The position numbers and the translations under genes are program-made. Below the pieces are notes generated by a model. It saw nothing but the letters and a program-made list of their open reading frames with translations, did not search any database and was not told the origin of the DNA. From contig NZ_MU158698.1 of the NCBI RefSeq assembly GCF_015210005.1, forward strand, positions 248,001 to 312,000: a DNA stretch of 64,000 nucleotides. Direction: 5' to 3'. The DNA is from Sphingobacterium hungaricum. GTDB lineage: Bacteria > Bacteroidota > Bacteroidia > Sphingobacteriales > Sphingobacteriaceae. Shown here in pieces: positions 17,688 through 25,222 of the stretch. Each line of letters begins with the position of its first letter. Position 1 is the first letter of the stretch.

Positions 17688-18323
17688 TTACATACCAATT
17701 TTAGAAATCGCAAATTCATATACAGTAGATTCAACGATGTCGTTATTGTCGGCAAACAGCACCAGTTTTAAAAAGATGGTTCCTGAAGTCAGGCCTGACT
17801 CAAATAGAAATTTAGATTTGTAATGATCGGAAGTTGACCAGTTCACATTGGTTTGACCAGCAGGATTGATAGGCGTAAAATAAATCGATGCTTTATTCAT
17901 CGAGTGCTGTGCTTTAAATTTAATTTTGAATACGCCCATTCGTGCTGTGTAGCCTACTTCAAATTCAGTGATTGGCACAAGCGGAACTTTTGCTTTTGCG
18001 CCTACTTTGGTAGTAGGCAATCCGCATCCTTTTAAGATAGCTTCATCCCCATGCGCAAGCTTGTTCACTCCTTTTACATTATCTCTTAAAATGTTTTCCG
18101 CTTTCGTTCGCTCATTGTTGCGATTCGAAATCGAATTGCGCTGTTTGTTATTTTCAACTTCATCAACATACATAAAAAAGGCTTCCGAAACGGGCTCAAG
18201 CAAGGTAATATTCGGCCATTCGTCTTTGTAAGTCTGGTTGTTTTTTTGTTTTTTAATGACATCCAGCATCGTTTTTCCAAAATTATCAATGGAATAACTC
18301 AAAAATTCGCACGTACATTGCAT
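17688..18323 (-). CDS. hypothetical protein, two-part, no known family
   Basis: 211 residues, no signal peptide or membrane helix. The first ~100 residues are polar and helical (TKAENILRDNVKGVNKLAHG). The second half is a beta-rich stretch (EVGYTARMGVFKIKFKAQHS ... IYFTPINPAGQTNVNWSTSD) ending FAISKIGM, which resembles a fibronectin-III-like sandwich found at the end of Bacteroidota proteins of unknown role. An internal Met at residue 19 is an alternative start. The gene sits between the two direct repeats and in front of a long AT-rich stretch and the 21-bp array, so it may be accessory DNA. Confidence 0.55.
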   Translation of the reverse strand: MQCTCEFLSYSIDNFGKTMLDVIKKQKNNQTYKDEWPNITLLEPVSEAFFMYVDEVENNKQRNSISNRNNERTKAENILRDNVKGVNKLAHGDEAILKGCGLPTTKVGAKAKVPLVPITEFEVGYTARMGVFKIKFKAQHSMNKASIYFTPINPAGQTNVNWSTSDHYKSKFLFESGLTSGTIFLKLVLFADNNDIVESTVYEFAISKIGM

Positions 18324-18681
18324 AATAATTTAGTATTAAATGTTTTCCAATAGATAGCAGTCCATACACAGGCAAGACTGCATATCGTTAACTAAGAACC
18401 AAATTAAAAATAAATTTTAATATTTCAAAATTATTTTATAATTTCTTAATAATTAATTAAAGATTTGATATGTGGATATATTGCTATGCTCACAGCTGAC
18501 GTATACTGCTTCATAATGAAAAAGTAATTCAATATGCAAGATTTATCTATTTTAAAGGTCATTTAATACCGTAAAGGAAAGTTTTGAAAAGAAAAATATA
18601 GAATATTTTATTTTTATTAAAAATTGCAAACTCAGCAGAAGTAGGTTAGAAGGGCATTAAACAACAATTTCTAAACTATCT
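18324..18681. other. AT-rich gene-free stretch
   Basis: 358 bp, strongly AT-rich (runs such as TAATTTCTTAATAATTAATT near 18440-18460), upstream of the minus-strand gene that starts at 18323. It should contain that gene's promoter but no TAnnTTTG match was convincing. No open frame of note. Confidence 0.6.
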
Positions 18682-18921
18682 AGCGCTTCTAGTATGACTA
18701 TGTGAACTTCTTATATACGCGTTAGAAGTTCTATCGTCACCATCAGAAGTTCTAATGCTTATGTTAGAAGGATTATTGCGAGCATTAGAAGTTATTTCGT
18801 GACCATCAGAAGTTCTAATGAAGCTATTAGAACTTCTTGTGTGAAGATAAGAAGCATCTGTTTGGCCATTAGAAGTTTTAGTCTATAAATCAGAAGTTCT
18901 AATAAGACTATTAGAACTTCA
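18682..18921. repeat. phased 21-bp repeat array, 12 units
   Basis: Units begin at 18682, 18703, 18724, 18745, 18766, 18787, 18808, 18829, 18850, 18871, 18892 and 18913: exactly 21 bp apart with no insertion or deletion. The best units read AGAAGTTCTAAT followed by about 9 variable bases; AGAA is invariant in the last ten units and always has T two bases before it. In two places (18808-18837, 18892-18920) neighbouring units carry opposite orientations and form near-perfect or perfect hairpins with a 6-nt loop. Units are not identical and the variable parts are unrelated, so this is not a simple microsatellite or a CRISPR. No gene covers it convincingly. Confidence 0.85.
18808..18837. repeat. 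perfect 12-bp inverted repeat inside the array
   Basis: AGAAGTTCTAAT (18808-18819), loop GAAGCT, ATTAGAACTTCT (18826-18837). The arms are exact reverse complements. A sister hairpin (11-bp arms) lies exactly 84 bp, four array periods, further on at 18893-18920. Confidence 0.85.
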
Positions 18922-19170
18922 AGGAAAGGCTAGCTAGCTTCCTTAAGACATCAAAAAGGCATTTGTGAGAAGACCATAAGGTTATGTTAAAGAAGAAATT
19001 GATTTATTTATCAAGTTTGAAGGTTATTTGGTGGTGAAAACCTAGCATTTTCAGGTAGTTTTAATGGACTTTTGCAAAAATGAGACTTGAAGGATTTTTG
19101 GATTAATTTAAATAATAGATTCTTCGCTACGCTACCAATGACAGATTTAATACTGGCTAAGCAGTATACA
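18922..19170. other. gene-free stretch between array and second direct repeat
   Basis: About 250 bp with no credible gene and no recognised regulatory signal; it leads into the second copy of the 505-bp repeat. Confidence 0.5.
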
Positions 19171-19224
19171 TATTGCTCCGTAGGAGCTACCGCTTTGTAA
19201 CAGGATTAATTGATAAATATATGC

Positions 19225-19270
19225 GTGCCGTAGGTACGCTCCTTTTGGAAAAGGATTGTACCTACGGCAC
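19225..19270. repeat. short REP hairpin
   Basis: GTGCCGTAGGTAC (19225-19237) and GTACCTACGGCAC (19258-19270) are exact reverse complements around a 20-bp spacer that holds an internal CCTTTTGGAAAAGG palindrome. The equivalent arm in the first direct repeat has decayed. Confidence 0.8.
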
Positions 19271-19398
19271 AAAATATTTCGCTGGTTTTTTACTACAAAG
19301 CGGTTGTGCCTACGGCACATTGAGCGGAAAATGTATTGCTTTTTAACTTGCTCCGTAGGAGCAAAATGTTTGTAGGAAAAAAATACGTAATGATAATA

Positions 19399-19474
19399 GC
19401 GTGCCGTAGATACGCAACAATTTATTTTGAAGCCATATAAATCTTTTCGATTGGATTGCGTACCTACGGCACGC
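19399..19474. repeat. REPIN-like inverted doublet, copy 3
   Basis: GCGTGCCGTAGATACGCAAC (19399-19418) faces ATTGCGTACCTACGGCACGC (19455-19474). It corresponds to 16668-16743 in the other direct repeat, with one further mismatch in the left arm. Confidence 0.8.
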
Positions 19475-19730: not shown

Positions 19731-22700
19731 TTAAATTGCCTTTTCTTTTTTATAAACCCAATAAAACACAATTGGCAATACGGTAAATGAAAGCACCAAA
19801 CAGAATAGTAATCCGCCGACGATCATAATCGCTAAGGGCTTTTGTATTTCCGAACCCATTCCGGTCGACAGAGCCGCCGGAAGCAGACCCATCGAACCCA
19901 TTAAAGCTATCATTATTACGGGACGGACACGGCTTCGGACGCCAATGGAAATCGCTTCCAATAAGGGCATTTTCTGCTTCAGGTTTTCACGCATCACACC
20001 TATTAATACAATCCCATCAATGGTGGCGACACCAAAAAGAATAATAAACCCGATACCTGCCGAAATCCCAAATACCGTTCCGGTCATCCATAGCGAAAGA
20101 AATCCGCCGATAAAGGCAAAAGGCAAGGTCAGCGAGGCAATTCCTGTGTCTTTAAAATTCCCAAAATTGCTGTAAAGCAATACCAAAATCAACAGCAGTG
20201 ATACAGGTACGACCATCATCAACTGCTTGCTGGCGCGCTCTTTACTCTCGAACTCCCCTGCCCATTCCATGTAGTTTTCCTTCGGCAGTTTTACCTCATT
20301 TGCTACGACCTGTTTTGCTTCTGCAATCGTGCTTCCCAAATCGCGCCCTTCAATACTGAATCCAACGCCAATATATCTACTATTTCCTTCTCTGTAAATA
20401 AAGGCAGGCCCAGTTTTATACGAAATCGTTGCAATTTCCTGCAAAGGGACCGAACGCCCATTGGATGTTGGAATGGAAATATTTCCAATCTTCTCTGGCG
20501 TATCGCGGTAGTTTTCTTCAAAGCGTAGCAAAACATCAAACTGCCGATCATCCTCATAGAATGTAGTCGCAGCCTGCCCTCCGATTGTCATCGCAATCAC
20601 GGCCTGAACATCAGCCGTAAACACGCCATATTTCGCCATTTTAGAATCATGCAGCTGAATCCGCAATTCCGGCAGGCCAATGTTTTCGTATACATTCAAA
20701 TCCGTAATGCCATCTACTTTCCGAATCGCTGTCGCGACCTGATTGGCATAATCTTCCAGATCGTATAAATCATTTCCAAAAATCTTAATGACCAACGCGC
20801 TCTTCACACCCGCTACATATTCTTCGACATTATCCTGAATCGGTTGGCTAAAACCAAAATTAATGCCCGGATATGCATCCAACTTCCCACGAATCTCCTG
20901 AATAATATCGTCTTTGCTTACCTTGCGTGCCCAATCGGATTGGTCTTTAAGCTGCACATTCAATTCAATATTGAAAAAGCCTGTTGGATCTGTTCCATCA
21001 TTCGGTCGGCCGGTCTGTGTTAGCACAAAATCGATTTCTTCGAAATCTGCTAAGAGCATGGATTTCATTTCTTTAGTCAGGCGTGTCGATTCTTTCAAGT
21101 TAATGCTATTGGGCAAGGTCGCCCGAATGTAGATCGCACCCTCATTTAATTTAGGCAGGAATTCAGAACCATAATGAGAGAACTTAACCGCACATATAGC
21201 CAGCACACCGACAAATAGCGCAATAGTCGTTTTCTTATAGGTAAAAGCATACTGATACAGCTTGTAGACATTATTGATGAAAAACTTTGAAATAAAGTTT
21301 TCACGCTCTTCCATATCCTTTGTGAACAGCAGTTTACACATGGCTGGCACATAAGTCAAGCTCAAGAGAAGAGAGCCTAACAATGCATAACCAAGTGTAA
21401 ATGCTAAAGGAGTAAACATCTTGCCTTCAACTTTCTGAAAAGAAAATATCGGCAACAGTGCCACAATTAAAATTAGCAATGCGAAGAAAATATAGGATGC
21501 AACACTACCCGCACTCCGCTTGATAATGCCCATTTTGCTCATTTTGGCAAAGCGCGCTGGCCCGACTTTGTGAGAAACGGTAGCAAGAGCGACGAAAACT
21601 GTTTCGACCATGACCAGTGTCCCCTCCAGCAACAGACCAAAATCAAGCGATCCCATCGAAATCAGGTTCGCCGGCAAACCTTGAATTTTGAGCATAATAA
21701 TCGCAAACAAAAAGGCCAAAGGAATAACCGAAGCGACGATAAATGTGGATTTCCAATTGTATAAAAAGATAAAGACAATCAAGGCCACCAAAAGCACACC
21801 TTCAACCAAATTTTTAGATACTGTATGTACGGTATTATCGACTAATTTAGTCCGGTCAACTACCGTTTCGATTTGCACATGTTCAGGCAAGGTACGGGTA
21901 TTCAGTTCCTTGATTTTATCTTTTAAGCGCTCGATCACTTCCGATGGATTTTCGCCACGCAACATCACAACAATCCCTTCCACTAAATCATCTTCTGCAT
22001 TGTAGCCGACCTGACCTAATCGAGGCTTAGCCGAAATCTCGACTTCCGCAATGTTCTTGATCAATACAGGGGTCGATCCATTTAATTGAATGGTGATGTT
22101 TTCGATGTCTTCAATCTTATCCAGCAAGCCGACACCGCGAACAACATAAGCTTGATCGCCCTGCTCGATCACATCTCCACCTACGTTAATATTGGATTTG
22201 GAAACCGCATCGTAAACATCCAATGGCGATAGGTCAAAACTCTTTAATGCAGTCGGATTAATCTTGATCTCAAAGATTTTTTCCTCGCCTCCGAAACTGA
22301 CAACGTCAGCTACACCCGGAACACTTAATAGTTCACGCTCGATTACCCAATCTTGCAATGCCGTAATTTCTTTGATCGGCAGATCGCTCTTGATGACATA
22401 GCGGAAAATTTCTCCGGTTGCACCCGATGGTGGTTCGATGGAAGTTTCTACCCCATCCGGCAAATCCACATCCGATAAACGGCTGGAAACATATTGCTGC
22501 GCATAAAAATCATCCACATCATCTTCAAATAGAACTGTGACAACCGACAGACCGAATAAAGAAATCGAACGCACGTTGGATTTCTTCGGAATGGTATTCA
22601 TGACTTTAGAAACCGGCAAAGTCACTAGCTTCTCAATCTCTTCGGCACTTCTTCCGGGCCATTGCGTAATGATGCGCGCGCGCGTATTCGTCACATCGGG

Positions 22701-22826
22701 ATAGGCTTCAATGGCAGTATGCATTAGGCTGTAAATTCCAGAAGCGAGCAGCGCTACTGTCAGGAAGATAATCAGCAATGCATTTTTTAAGGAAAATGAA
22801 ACAATATTTTGTACAAACTTCTTCAT
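19731..22826 (-). CDS. heavy-metal efflux RND pump (CusA/CzcA family)
   Basis: 1031 residues, the usual length for a heavy-metal RND pump: two sets of membrane helices and two large periplasmic loops. It starts with an N-terminal helix and AYPDVTNTRARIITQWPGRS, typical of CzcA/CusA. It expels metal ions across both membranes with the adaptor and TolC proteins encoded upstream. The helix-4 motif is DFGLLLEGTLVMVE (Asp395, Glu401, Glu408); in CzcA the middle acid is Asp, so a Glu substitution is present. The start lies 4 bp after the adaptor stop. Metal specificity (Cu/Ag or Zn/Co/Cd) cannot be decided from sequence alone. Confidence 0.93.
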   Translation of the reverse strand: MKKFVQNIVSFSLKNALLIIFLTVALLASGIYSLMHTAIEAYPDVTNTRARIITQWPGRSAEEIEKLVTLPVSKVMNTIPKKSNVRSISLFGLSVVTVLFEDDVDDFYAQQYVSSRLSDVDLPDGVETSIEPPSGATGEIFRYVIKSDLPIKEITALQDWVIERELLSVPGVADVVSFGGEEKIFEIKINPTALKSFDLSPLDVYDAVSKSNINVGGDVIEQGDQAYVVRGVGLLDKIEDIENITIQLNGSTPVLIKNIAEVEISAKPRLGQVGYNAEDDLVEGIVVMLRGENPSEVIERLKDKIKELNTRTLPEHVQIETVVDRTKLVDNTVHTVSKNLVEGVLLVALIVFIFLYNWKSTFIVASVIPLAFLFAIIMLKIQGLPANLISMGSLDFGLLLEGTLVMVETVFVALATVSHKVGPARFAKMSKMGIIKRSAGSVASYIFFALLILIVALLPIFSFQKVEGKMFTPLAFTLGYALLGSLLLSLTYVPAMCKLLFTKDMEERENFISKFFINNVYKLYQYAFTYKKTTIALFVGVLAICAVKFSHYGSEFLPKLNEGAIYIRATLPNSINLKESTRLTKEMKSMLLADFEEIDFVLTQTGRPNDGTDPTGFFNIELNVQLKDQSDWARKVSKDDIIQEIRGKLDAYPGINFGFSQPIQDNVEEYVAGVKSALVIKIFGNDLYDLEDYANQVATAIRKVDGITDLNVYENIGLPELRIQLHDSKMAKYGVFTADVQAVIAMTIGGQAATTFYEDDRQFDVLLRFEENYRDTPEKIGNISIPTSNGRSVPLQEIATISYKTGPAFIYREGNSRYIGVGFSIEGRDLGSTIAEAKQVVANEVKLPKENYMEWAGEFESKERASKQLMMVVPVSLLLILVLLYSNFGNFKDTGIASLTLPFAFIGGFLSLWMTGTVFGISAGIGFIILFGVATIDGIVLIGVMRENLKQKMPLLEAISIGVRSRVRPVIMIALMGSMGLLPAALSTGMGSEIQKPLAIMIVGGLLFCLVLSFTVLPIVFYWVYKKEKAI

Positions 22827-22830
22827 CCTC

Positions 22831-23922
22831 TTATTTATTTATTTCTTCAAAAAGCAACAAAGCATTCGCATCCACAATCTGTGTGAAATCAGCCAAACCT
22901 TCTTTTATGTAAACCATTTCTTCATTGGAAGCAAAAGGTTCAATGCGGAAAATCTGCAGATTGCAATCATCTTTGTACCCAACTACATATTCTTTGTTGT
23001 TGTGAAATACGACCGACTTTCGTGGAATGGCGAAACCTTTGCCCGTACTGTTATTTTTATGGATCAAGATATCTGCTGACATGCCCGGCATTAGGTTGAT
23101 GTTTCTGTTTTCCAAGACAACGCGCGCTTTCAGCACATGTTCGTTTTCATCAAAGACCTTGTAAATCTTATCGATCTTTCCATCATACAATTCATCTGGA
23201 TAGGCTAAGGTTCTTACCTTCACCACATCGCCCTCTTTAATGTATTGCAGATTATTTGCATAGATATTGACCATGACCCAAATCTGATTTAGGTTTGAGA
23301 TAGCGAATAAAGGACCTTCATCGCTCGTGACCGATTGCCCGACGCTCATATTTTTTTGCACAACAAAACCGTCTTTGGGCGCGATGATCTGAAATTGTCC
23401 TTTGGTATCCGAAGCCCTATATAAGCTAAGGTTTTGATTGATTTTATCGAGTTCCAATCGGCCATTGGCCAATTCATGTTCTGTCTCTAACACATCAGTC
23501 GATGAAGTCATTCCATCTGCCAATAGCGTCTGCTTATTTTTCAATACTTTTTCTAACAGGTCAATCTGATTTTGGGAATAACTTTTCTGTTGGTAGAGGT
23601 CTTGGATCTGAATGGAATTCACCGTTGCCAAAACTTGTCCCTTATGCACTCGGTCACCGAGTTCAAACTTCACCTGTTCGACAATCCCTTCCAATAAACT
23701 TTTGAAGGCGACTAAATCATTTTCATTGTACGATACTTTTCCAGTCAATGTCAACTGTTCATAAATCGCCTGTTCTTCCAAAGGAATCGGATGCGTATTT
23801 TTCCTTAAGGTTTCGCTGATGCAATAGCTTTTCTCTACGGCAGCAGTAGTTTCTTCGGCTGGTTTTGATTGACAAGAAAATAAGGAGATCGCGCCGAGCG
23901 CGTAAACAAAATGCAATTTCAT
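22831..23922 (-). CDS. RND efflux periplasmic adaptor (HlyD/CusB-like lipoprotein)
   Basis: The frame is open upstream to 23994, but the ATG at 23922 gives a lipoprotein leader (MKLHFVYALGAISLFSCQSK, lipobox Cys17) and a 2-bp gap to the tolC stop, so I start there (363 residues). A barrel-sandwich hybrid domain (GIVEQVKFELGDRVHKGQVL), a helical hairpin, and the return strand FQIIAPKDGFVVQKNMSVGQ are clear. It bridges the inner membrane pump and outer membrane channel. No His- or Met-rich N-terminal metal-binding tail is evident. Confidence 0.9.
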   Translation of the reverse strand: MKLHFVYALGAISLFSCQSKPAEETTAAVEKSYCISETLRKNTHPIPLEEQAIYEQLTLTGKVSYNENDLVAFKSLLEGIVEQVKFELGDRVHKGQVLATVNSIQIQDLYQQKSYSQNQIDLLEKVLKNKQTLLADGMTSSTDVLETEHELANGRLELDKINQNLSLYRASDTKGQFQIIAPKDGFVVQKNMSVGQSVTSDEGPLFAISNLNQIWVMVNIYANNLQYIKEGDVVKVRTLAYPDELYDGKIDKIYKVFDENEHVLKARVVLENRNINLMPGMSADILIHKNNSTGKGFAIPRKSVVFHNNKEYVVGYKDDCNLQIFRIEPFASNEEMVYIKEGLADFTQIVDANALLLFEEINK

Positions 23923-23924
23923 AA

Positions 23925-25199
23925 TTATAAATCTGTGCCTAAGCTGTATTGTAGTTCTTGATAAAGTTTGCGGTAATTCTCTTGCAGGTTCCAAAAGGTT
24001 TGCTGTGCTTCGAGAAAAGAGGTTGAAAAGTCAATAAATTCCAATAAGGTGATCTGCTGATTATTCAAATGCTTTTGGTAATTGTCCATCATCATTTGGT
24101 AAGACTCGATCGCCTCTGGCGGATATTCTTTCAATGCTTGTTCGTAAAATGAAAGCTGCTGGATCTGCCGGTCGATATCATTTTCGATCTCCTGTTTTAA
24201 ATAGGCTGTATTTTTCTGCTCCTGTTGGATAGCTAGCTGTGCAACCTGAATATTTCCCTTGTTGCGGTTGAAGACAGGAAGATCAATACGCAACCCCAAT
24301 CCCACGAAATCTTGCATAATGTTACCGCCGCGATCGTAATTGACCATAAAGTTTAAATCAGGAACCGCTTCTGCTTTCGCTAAGCGGTGCGTGCGCTCTG
24401 CTAACTGCTGTCTGTTCAACGCGCGTTTGATTGCGACTCTATTTTCAGAAATATTTTCTTTGGCTTCTAGGAAAGCTTGTTGCTCAAACGCAATAGGTTG
24501 ATTTGAGTCGATTCGGCTAATCGATCCATGTGGCAATCCCGCAAATAAATTGATCTTGGATAGCAGTTCTGCTTTTTCGCTCCGTAAGTCGACCAACTGT
24601 TCTTTTTGTTGGATAAGTTCAGATTGAATCCGATAATATTCGGCTTTAGAAACAGTTTTGTTCTCAGACTGGCGGCTGTATTGTCCGCTTAACTGTTCGA
24701 AATAACTGACGGCATAATGCACTTGCGTTTCTTGCTTTTGCAAGCGATCCAACTCGATCAGCGAAGTCCGCAGTTCTAATTTCAACGAGCGCAATAATTC
24801 TTCGAAAGCTAATTCAGTATCTACTTTTTCAAGTTCTTTGATCGAAATGCGCTTCTTGCGTTTATTCGAAGTTTCAACAAGCTGTTCCAATTCTAACGCG
24901 AATTGCTGCGTATGTCCATAATCACGCCACAGCCTTGGCAACTGTTCGCTGGTACTGTTAGCCCATAGATTGACTTCAGAAATTTCAAGGCTTGGATTAG
25001 GCCAGACTTTGGCTTGAAGAATTTCAGCTTGCGCCATGTCGACATCGTACTTTGCAGCAAATAGCTGGATATTATTCCTCAGTAACAAACTTTCGATTTC
25101 GACAGGAGAAAAAACCCGATCAGCATCTGCTTGTTGAGCGGAAGAAATTATGGGAATGCAAGTAATAAAAATAAGGAGGTAAGTATAGTTGAATCGCAT
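23925..25199 (-). CDS. TolC-family outer membrane efflux channel
   Basis: Start chosen at 25199 (MRFNYTYLLIFITCIPIISS, then AQ) because the signal peptide begins there; an in-frame ATG exists at 25217. About 424 residues with two long coiled-coil repeats: NPSLEISEVNLW in the first, VPDLNFMVNYDRGGN and GLRIDLPVFNRNKG in the second. This is the CusC/CzcC type of channel. It is the first of three coupled genes (2-bp and 4-bp gaps to adaptor and pump). An exact TAnnTTTG element and a direct-repeat operator precede it, suggesting its own inducible promoter within the larger operon. Confidence 0.92.
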   Translation of the reverse strand: MRFNYTYLLIFITCIPIISSAQQADADRVFSPVEIESLLLRNNIQLFAAKYDVDMAQAEILQAKVWPNPSLEISEVNLWANSTSEQLPRLWRDYGHTQQFALELEQLVETSNKRKKRISIKELEKVDTELAFEELLRSLKLELRTSLIELDRLQKQETQVHYAVSYFEQLSGQYSRQSENKTVSKAEYYRIQSELIQQKEQLVDLRSEKAELLSKINLFAGLPHGSISRIDSNQPIAFEQQAFLEAKENISENRVAIKRALNRQQLAERTHRLAKAEAVPDLNFMVNYDRGGNIMQDFVGLGLRIDLPVFNRNKGNIQVAQLAIQQEQKNTAYLKQEIENDIDRQIQQLSFYEQALKEYPPEAIESYQMMMDNYQKHLNNQQITLLEFIDFSTSFLEAQQTFWNLQENYRKLYQELQYSLGTDL

Positions 25200-25214
25200 A
25201 AAATGTATTTGATT

Positions 25215-25222
25215 CAAAAGTA
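25215..25222 (-). promoter_or_regulatory. candidate -7 element of the efflux genes
   Basis: On the minus strand, TACTTTTG matches TAnnTTTG exactly. It lies about 16 bp before the tolC ATG at 25199. No TTTG is present at the -33 position, which fits a promoter that needs an activator. Confidence 0.55.

Follow-up and report, generated by a model that had tools for sequence, protein, structure and literature searches.

Layout of the 21-bp Array and Its Surroundings

The window, a stretch of 64,000 nucleotides of the genome of Sphingobacterium hungaricum, contains a tandem array of short phased repeats, which sits 358 bp upstream of the start codon of the minus-strand gene P0004. The locus comprises the following features:

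17688–18323, minus strand: gene P0004, product of 211 aa, predicted as a helical bundle followed by a beta-sandwich, distant member of the array-associated family
18324–18681, minus strand: AT-rich interval from array to gene; no inverted repeat or promoter is claimed here
18682–18921, no strand assigned: array of 12 units with a 21-bp period (layout, autocorrelation, palindrome test)
18722–18734, no strand assigned: near-consensus palindromic site TTAGAAGTTCTAT, one mismatch
18743–18755, no strand assigned: near-consensus palindromic site TCAGAAGTTCTAA, one mismatch
18806–18818, no strand assigned: near-consensus palindromic site TCAGAAGTTCTAA, one mismatch
18890–18902, no strand assigned: near-consensus palindromic site TCAGAAGTTCTAA, one mismatch

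A preliminary description of this stretch, made without database searches, had claimed 12 units exactly 21 bp apart without indel, an invariant AGAA in the last ten units and unrelated bases between the cores. All three claims held when the array was laid out at 21 bp over 18682–18933: the period is exact with zero indels, AGAA is constant across the ten units from 18724 onward (the first two units are degenerate, with AGCG and TGAA), and the spacers of approx. 8–9 bp are mutually unrelated. Column 2 (G) is conserved in 12/12 units and columns 1, 3 and 4 in 11/12 each. Autocorrelation at 21 bp amounts to 0.56 (210-bp window), whereas none of 20 shuffled windows exceeds 0.41, and among periods from 10 to 63 it exceeds 0.45 only at 21, 42 and 63. 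Every one of the six reading frames of 18682–18933 contains at least one stop.

The AGAAGTTCTAAT “core” belongs to a larger odd palindrome, TTAGAA(G/C)TTCTAA (palindrome p = 0.007). The alternative centre base is present in some units as ATTAGAACTTC (18829, 18913), and the 13-mer palindrome is matched with one mismatch in 4/12 units. This palindromic core had been overlooked in the preliminary description, as had the associated gene family and the locus-private nature of AGAAGTTCTAAT. A search of the window core through its own genome found an array at no second place, and when the window DNA was searched against 94 genomes of the genus, only the window itself was returned, because cores are private to each locus. 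Relatives carry other cores instead of AGAAGTTCTAAT.

Two further elements were observed on the other side of the array. An RND-type metal efflux operon (CzcA/CusA-like protein, membrane fusion protein, outer membrane factor) is located beside it on the minus strand (19731–25217), and between the array and this operon a GTGCCGTAGGTACGC / CTACGGCACGC repeat occurs in several copies and both orientations (19180–19470), resembling an interspersed REP-like repeat.

P0004 has a 44% identical paralog in its own genome, and there is a third copy, which is interrupted by an in-frame stop; both have their own 21-bp arrays with different cores. P0004 shares 19% identity with the wider family described below, and a profile comparison yielded an E-value of 5e-5, with a probability of only 66% over 160 columns. 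The VAxGD motif is common to both, and the fold predicted for P0004 follows the family layout of three long helices and a subsequent beta sandwich (model pLDDT of 77 vs. 89.5 for the family model). Based on identity, profile comparison, motif and predicted fold, we assign P0004 to the array-associated family as a distant member.

An Array-Associated Protein Family in Bacteroidia

A scan of the genus detected further arrays that share this geometry but not the core, which is GCTAGC in genomes G008 and G085 and TTAGCATTTTACCAAACGTCC in G007 and G047; several such arrays are located upstream of related genes of approx. 205 aa. The preliminary description had named a lack of comparable arrays in relatives as grounds for its refutation; such arrays were found, and the phase is retained while spacers, and even cores, change. 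Using one of these proteins as query, about 100 strong family members were detected in 35 of 94 Sphingobacterium genomes. At 60 of 71 Sphingobacterium family genes, 21 bp is the top upstream period, and an upstream array is present at 61/79 family genes vs. 1/485 other genes, with controls drawn from the same named loci. Among 395 sampled Bacteroidia genomes, 52 contain the family, often in multiple copies. Outside Sphingobacterium, the array lies upstream of 27/28 testable family genes, and the family gene is its sole constant neighbor. The family search was confined to Bacteroidia, gene-less arrays were not exhaustively counted, and the statistics reported here are without phylogenetic correction.

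A fold search with the family model matched its beta-sandwich to FN3 domains, and no named relative was found for the helical domain. Neither Pfam and NCBIfam nor the fold search recognized a DNA-binding domain in the family protein. Conserved neighbors of the arrays are the FN3-like gene, an AraC gene, a helical gene and DUF5675. The conserved downstream genes (the helical gene in A, DUF5675 in B) were rejected as parts of the core module, as they are lineage-specific. A known defense system was rejected since the main protein has no PADLOC match, and a viral, phage or plasmid origin was rejected since no homolog was found.

In genome G073, the module is located inside a nusG-rplK gap of 3160 bp, where a dozen relatives have approx. 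190–310 bp. Modules are therefore gained at otherwise empty sites. No transposase was seen at this insertion, whose ends are undefined, and a search for 21-bp arrays in 22 other nusG-downstream regions found none. In Sphingobacterium, different inserts often widen the gap between nusG and rplK (L272–L295), e.g., a peptidase-like gene in L272.

Several loci differ in composition. A DUF5675 gene comes after the subfamily B gene in L238–L248. In L241, two small ORFs follow, which may span the membrane and recall a phage lysis cassette. Four homologous units of approx. 0.5–1 kb in G008 (L054, L055, L056, L058) carry a CTAGCA-core array without a family gene and represent dispersed solo arrays, three of which are near genes for tRNA-Met, SRP RNA and three tRNA-Asp. 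A tRNA/SRP-RNA neighborhood, an explanation prompted by these arrays, was rejected because it is not general.

Period and Selection on Phase

Upstream of 60 genes, the number of repeated 6-mer pairs is 715 at a distance of 21 bp, 976 at 42, 886 at 63, 1063 at 84, 814 at 105 and 1042 at 126, compared to a background of approx. 17 pairs for each of the other distances, with 18 pairs at 20 bp and 38 at 22 bp. Eleven members form a subfamily in which steps of 20, 21 and 22 bp add up to a 104-bp super-period; such a super-repeat, observed in L102, L103, L107, L108, L113, L114 and L116, is 5 × 20.8 bp and spans ten helical turns if one turn is taken as 10.4 bp. In the class-wide set, 21/42 is the rule, and a single array each has a period of 20 and of 22 bp. 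Periods of 20, 20.8 and 22 bp fit two helical turns, not seven codons. In G085, the core of about fifteen units is strictly phased, while the spacers are essentially random.

In 17 ortholog pairs, which are not fully independent, the array accumulated 744 substitutions and 4 indels (2, 21, 21 and 42 bp), whereas the interval beside it accumulated 340 substitutions and 10 indels, mostly of 1 bp. Phase-breaking indels amount to 1 per 744 substitutions in the array vs. 10 per 340 beside it (array vs. adjacent-interval indels, Fisher p = 8e-5). Within arrays, the substitution rate is 6% in conserved and 20% in variable columns. The strict phase is under selection, and the arrays are non-coding, consist mostly of palindromic units and are placed upstream of a family gene. 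Linkage to the family gene, palindromic cores and indel-poor orthologs together are strong arguments for a helically phased protein-binding array at the DNA level and against a coding origin or neutral decay. The protein-binding reading of the preliminary description is strongly supported in this respect, although no binding was measured.

Palindromic and Private Cores

Palindromic units (p < 0.05) were found in 65/91 arrays of the genus and in 21/28 class-wide arrays, i.e., in 86/119, which suggests, by inference, a symmetric dimer per unit. Core sequences differ from locus to locus, and each remains private even among the arrays of a single genome. The exception is G008, in which one core occurs at several places, partly without the gene. 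A shared binder that recognizes a single sequence throughout a genome was rejected, as arrays of the same genome share many repeated 6-mers only in G008.

Array similarity is 0.94 above 90% protein identity, 0.74 at 80–90% and 0.28 below 50%. This smooth decay is expected from co-evolution and from simple linkage alike. The N-domain predicts array similarity better than the C-domain (partial 0.35 vs. 0.13), and array similarity tracks AraC-domain identity slightly closer than family-protein identity (partial rank correlation 0.40 vs. 0.20).

Upstream Anatomy and the AraC-Type Gene

In family A, a long inverted repeat and a promoter motif, TAnnTTTG, lie between array and start codon. The motif is present in 43/70 loci (4.6 expected) at a median of −47, and the inverted-repeat score reaches ≥12 in 41/70 loci vs. 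0.7% of shuffles. An AraC-family gene (HTH_18 above the Pfam cut-off) is located upstream on the same strand at 56/81 named and 49/70 whole-genome family A loci (approx. 70%). The array is present at 54/63 loci with and 10/26 loci without AraC (p = 1.7e-5, not phylogenetically corrected). Two family clades lack both AraC gene and array (L104, L105, L110, L118; L117, L120), suggestive of joint loss.

An adjacent AraC-type gene was absent from the window locus, from the paralogs in the same genome and from subfamily B, and 20 class-wide loci gave one weak match and none at the remaining loci. Therefore, an adjacent AraC protein cannot be the universal binder. Further, AraC proteins classically bind non-palindromic direct repeats, and the mostly palindromic units found here count against AraC as binder. 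The same applies to the large core changes between loci with similar AraC DNA-binding domains: cores are greatly changed in L096 vs. L097/L098, and the domains are 76–85% identical across such loci.

Proposed Mechanism and Rival Explanations

The reading we favor, if only by a modest margin, is that of a helically phased, operator-like array which serves as a cooperative binding platform of the adjacent gene. Protein binding, cooperativity, transcription control and the identity of the binder are all inferred, as there are no binding or expression data. A dimeric, sequence-specific protein would occupy one palindromic site per two helical turns; 12–20 consecutive sites occupied on the same DNA face would form a cooperative nucleoprotein patch, which, being upstream of the promoter, would control expression of the adjacent helical/FN3-like gene. 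An own array sequence per locus would imply an own cognate binder per array, but a private binder per locus has not been demonstrated. In one Sphingobacterium subfamily, a good candidate would be the AraC-family regulator whose gene lies directly upstream at approx. 70% of the loci; at the window locus, no adjacent regulator gene could supply the binder.

Instead, the gene's own product, with its helical bundle and FN3-like domain, might bind the private array as an autoregulator or structural filament, AraC-like regulators having been added later. This remains a possibility: the gene is the only constant array neighbor outside Sphingobacterium, 27 of the 28 class-wide loci have the array upstream of it, and array similarity falls with protein identity, with the N-domain as better predictor. 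However, the protein has no DNA-binding domain recognized by the searches above, the gene is kept in both clades without array or AraC, and co-divergence is equally expected from simple linkage. It is unlikely that periodicity alone matters, i.e., that any 21-bp repeat sums small in-phase bends to a curved or supercoil-absorbing segment read by its shape. This would account for varying cores at a constant period, and in a dinucleotide wedge model the in-phase bend exceeds that of column-permuted controls, with a mean z of 0.92, 32% of the arrays above 1.64 and none below −1.64. Nevertheless, the bend effect is modest, and by itself it leaves the palindromic conserved cores and the contrast of 6% vs. 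20% between columns unexplained.

The remaining explanations are weaker still. A transcribed array acting as repeat RNA in the style of type III toxin-antitoxin systems finds support in the position directly upstream of a small gene and in the folding of the window array, where both RNA strands fold better than shuffles (z approx. −4.6). We regard it as very unlikely, since contiguous palindromes (GCTAGC, AGCATGCT) cannot individually fold into hairpins, the period (20–22) is coupled to the DNA helix, the family A promoter motif lies between array and gene, and the protein has an FN3-like fold without RNase-like match. A decayed or overlapping heptapeptide-coding sequence, the main alternative in the preliminary description, is practically ruled out. 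It is true that 21 is a multiple of three and that one frame is open over 240 bp in 26/71 arrays vs. 6% in periodicity-destroying shuffles, but all six frames are stopped in 45/71 arrays, the cores are palindromic, and the existence of 20-, 20.8- and 22-bp arrays, i.e., of periods which are not multiples of three, largely refutes it. Hardly any room is left for a neutral minisatellite produced by slippage either: whole-unit indels (21, 21 and 42 bp) do show that units are gained and lost, but the randomization of spacers involved no phase-breaking indels, the conserved columns are under constraint, and the gene downstream of the arrays comes from one and the same family.

Comparison With Known Systems

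AraC/XylS operators of the araI1-araI2 type share with the arrays a position upstream of a promoter and recurring sites at a distance of two helical turns (21 bp). An AraC-type gene is adjacent in approx. 70% of family A loci but is missing at the window locus and in most of the other lineages. The operators have two sites instead of 12–20, and the criterion of asymmetric half-sites failed, with 65/91 arrays palindromic (window p = 0.007). Plasmid iterons are arrays of Rep-binding repeats of approx. 17–22 bp, helically phased and with a sequence private to the replicon and its cognate gene. The arrays described here share helical phasing and private sequence but are chromosomal and many per genome, with palindromic units and a helical/FN3-like downstream gene; no Rep-like gene was recognized among the neighbors inspected, not all of which were run through Pfam. 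ParB/parS-type or ParR-centromere arrays likewise are clusters of cooperatively bound sites (binding being inferred in our case), and parS is palindromic, but the site sequence here differs at every locus and no ParA/ParB/ParM-like neighbor was seen.

Type III toxin-antitoxin systems (ToxIN) also have a small gene immediately preceded by a tandem array, but differ from the diverged spacers, DNA-helix period and FN3-like protein fold found here. The downstream gene has no family match to a ToxN/CptN/TenpN-like endoribonuclease, its model being a helical bundle plus FN3, and the type III criterion of near-identical RNA repeats with a terminator failed, as spacers are unrelated and a promoter motif lies between array and gene. 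CRISPR arrays have identical repeats and unique spacers of approx. 30 bp, unlike the variable repeats and 8–9 bp spacers observed here, and no cas gene was recognized among the conserved neighbors. Limited searching of the literature, directed at 21-bp arrays and at repeats upstream of DUF5675 or FN3 proteins, found no matching description. To this extent, the array class is apparently undescribed.

Significance

A bolder reading, for which arguments on both sides seem to us evenly balanced, is that of a class-wide chromosomal module of Bacteroidia, in which a helical/FN3-like gene is combined with a private, fast-evolving palindromic array locked to two helical turns; the protein or a dedicated regulator would co-evolve with the DNA of each locus into a self-specific nucleoprotein structure. 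What is conserved together is the gene family and the DNA geometry, not the DNA sequence: across many families of Bacteroidia, the period persists and the presumed recognition sequence is exchanged. The arrays thus represent natural replicates for the evolution of protein-DNA specificity and of cooperative arrays, and they give a handle on a large uncharacterized protein family.
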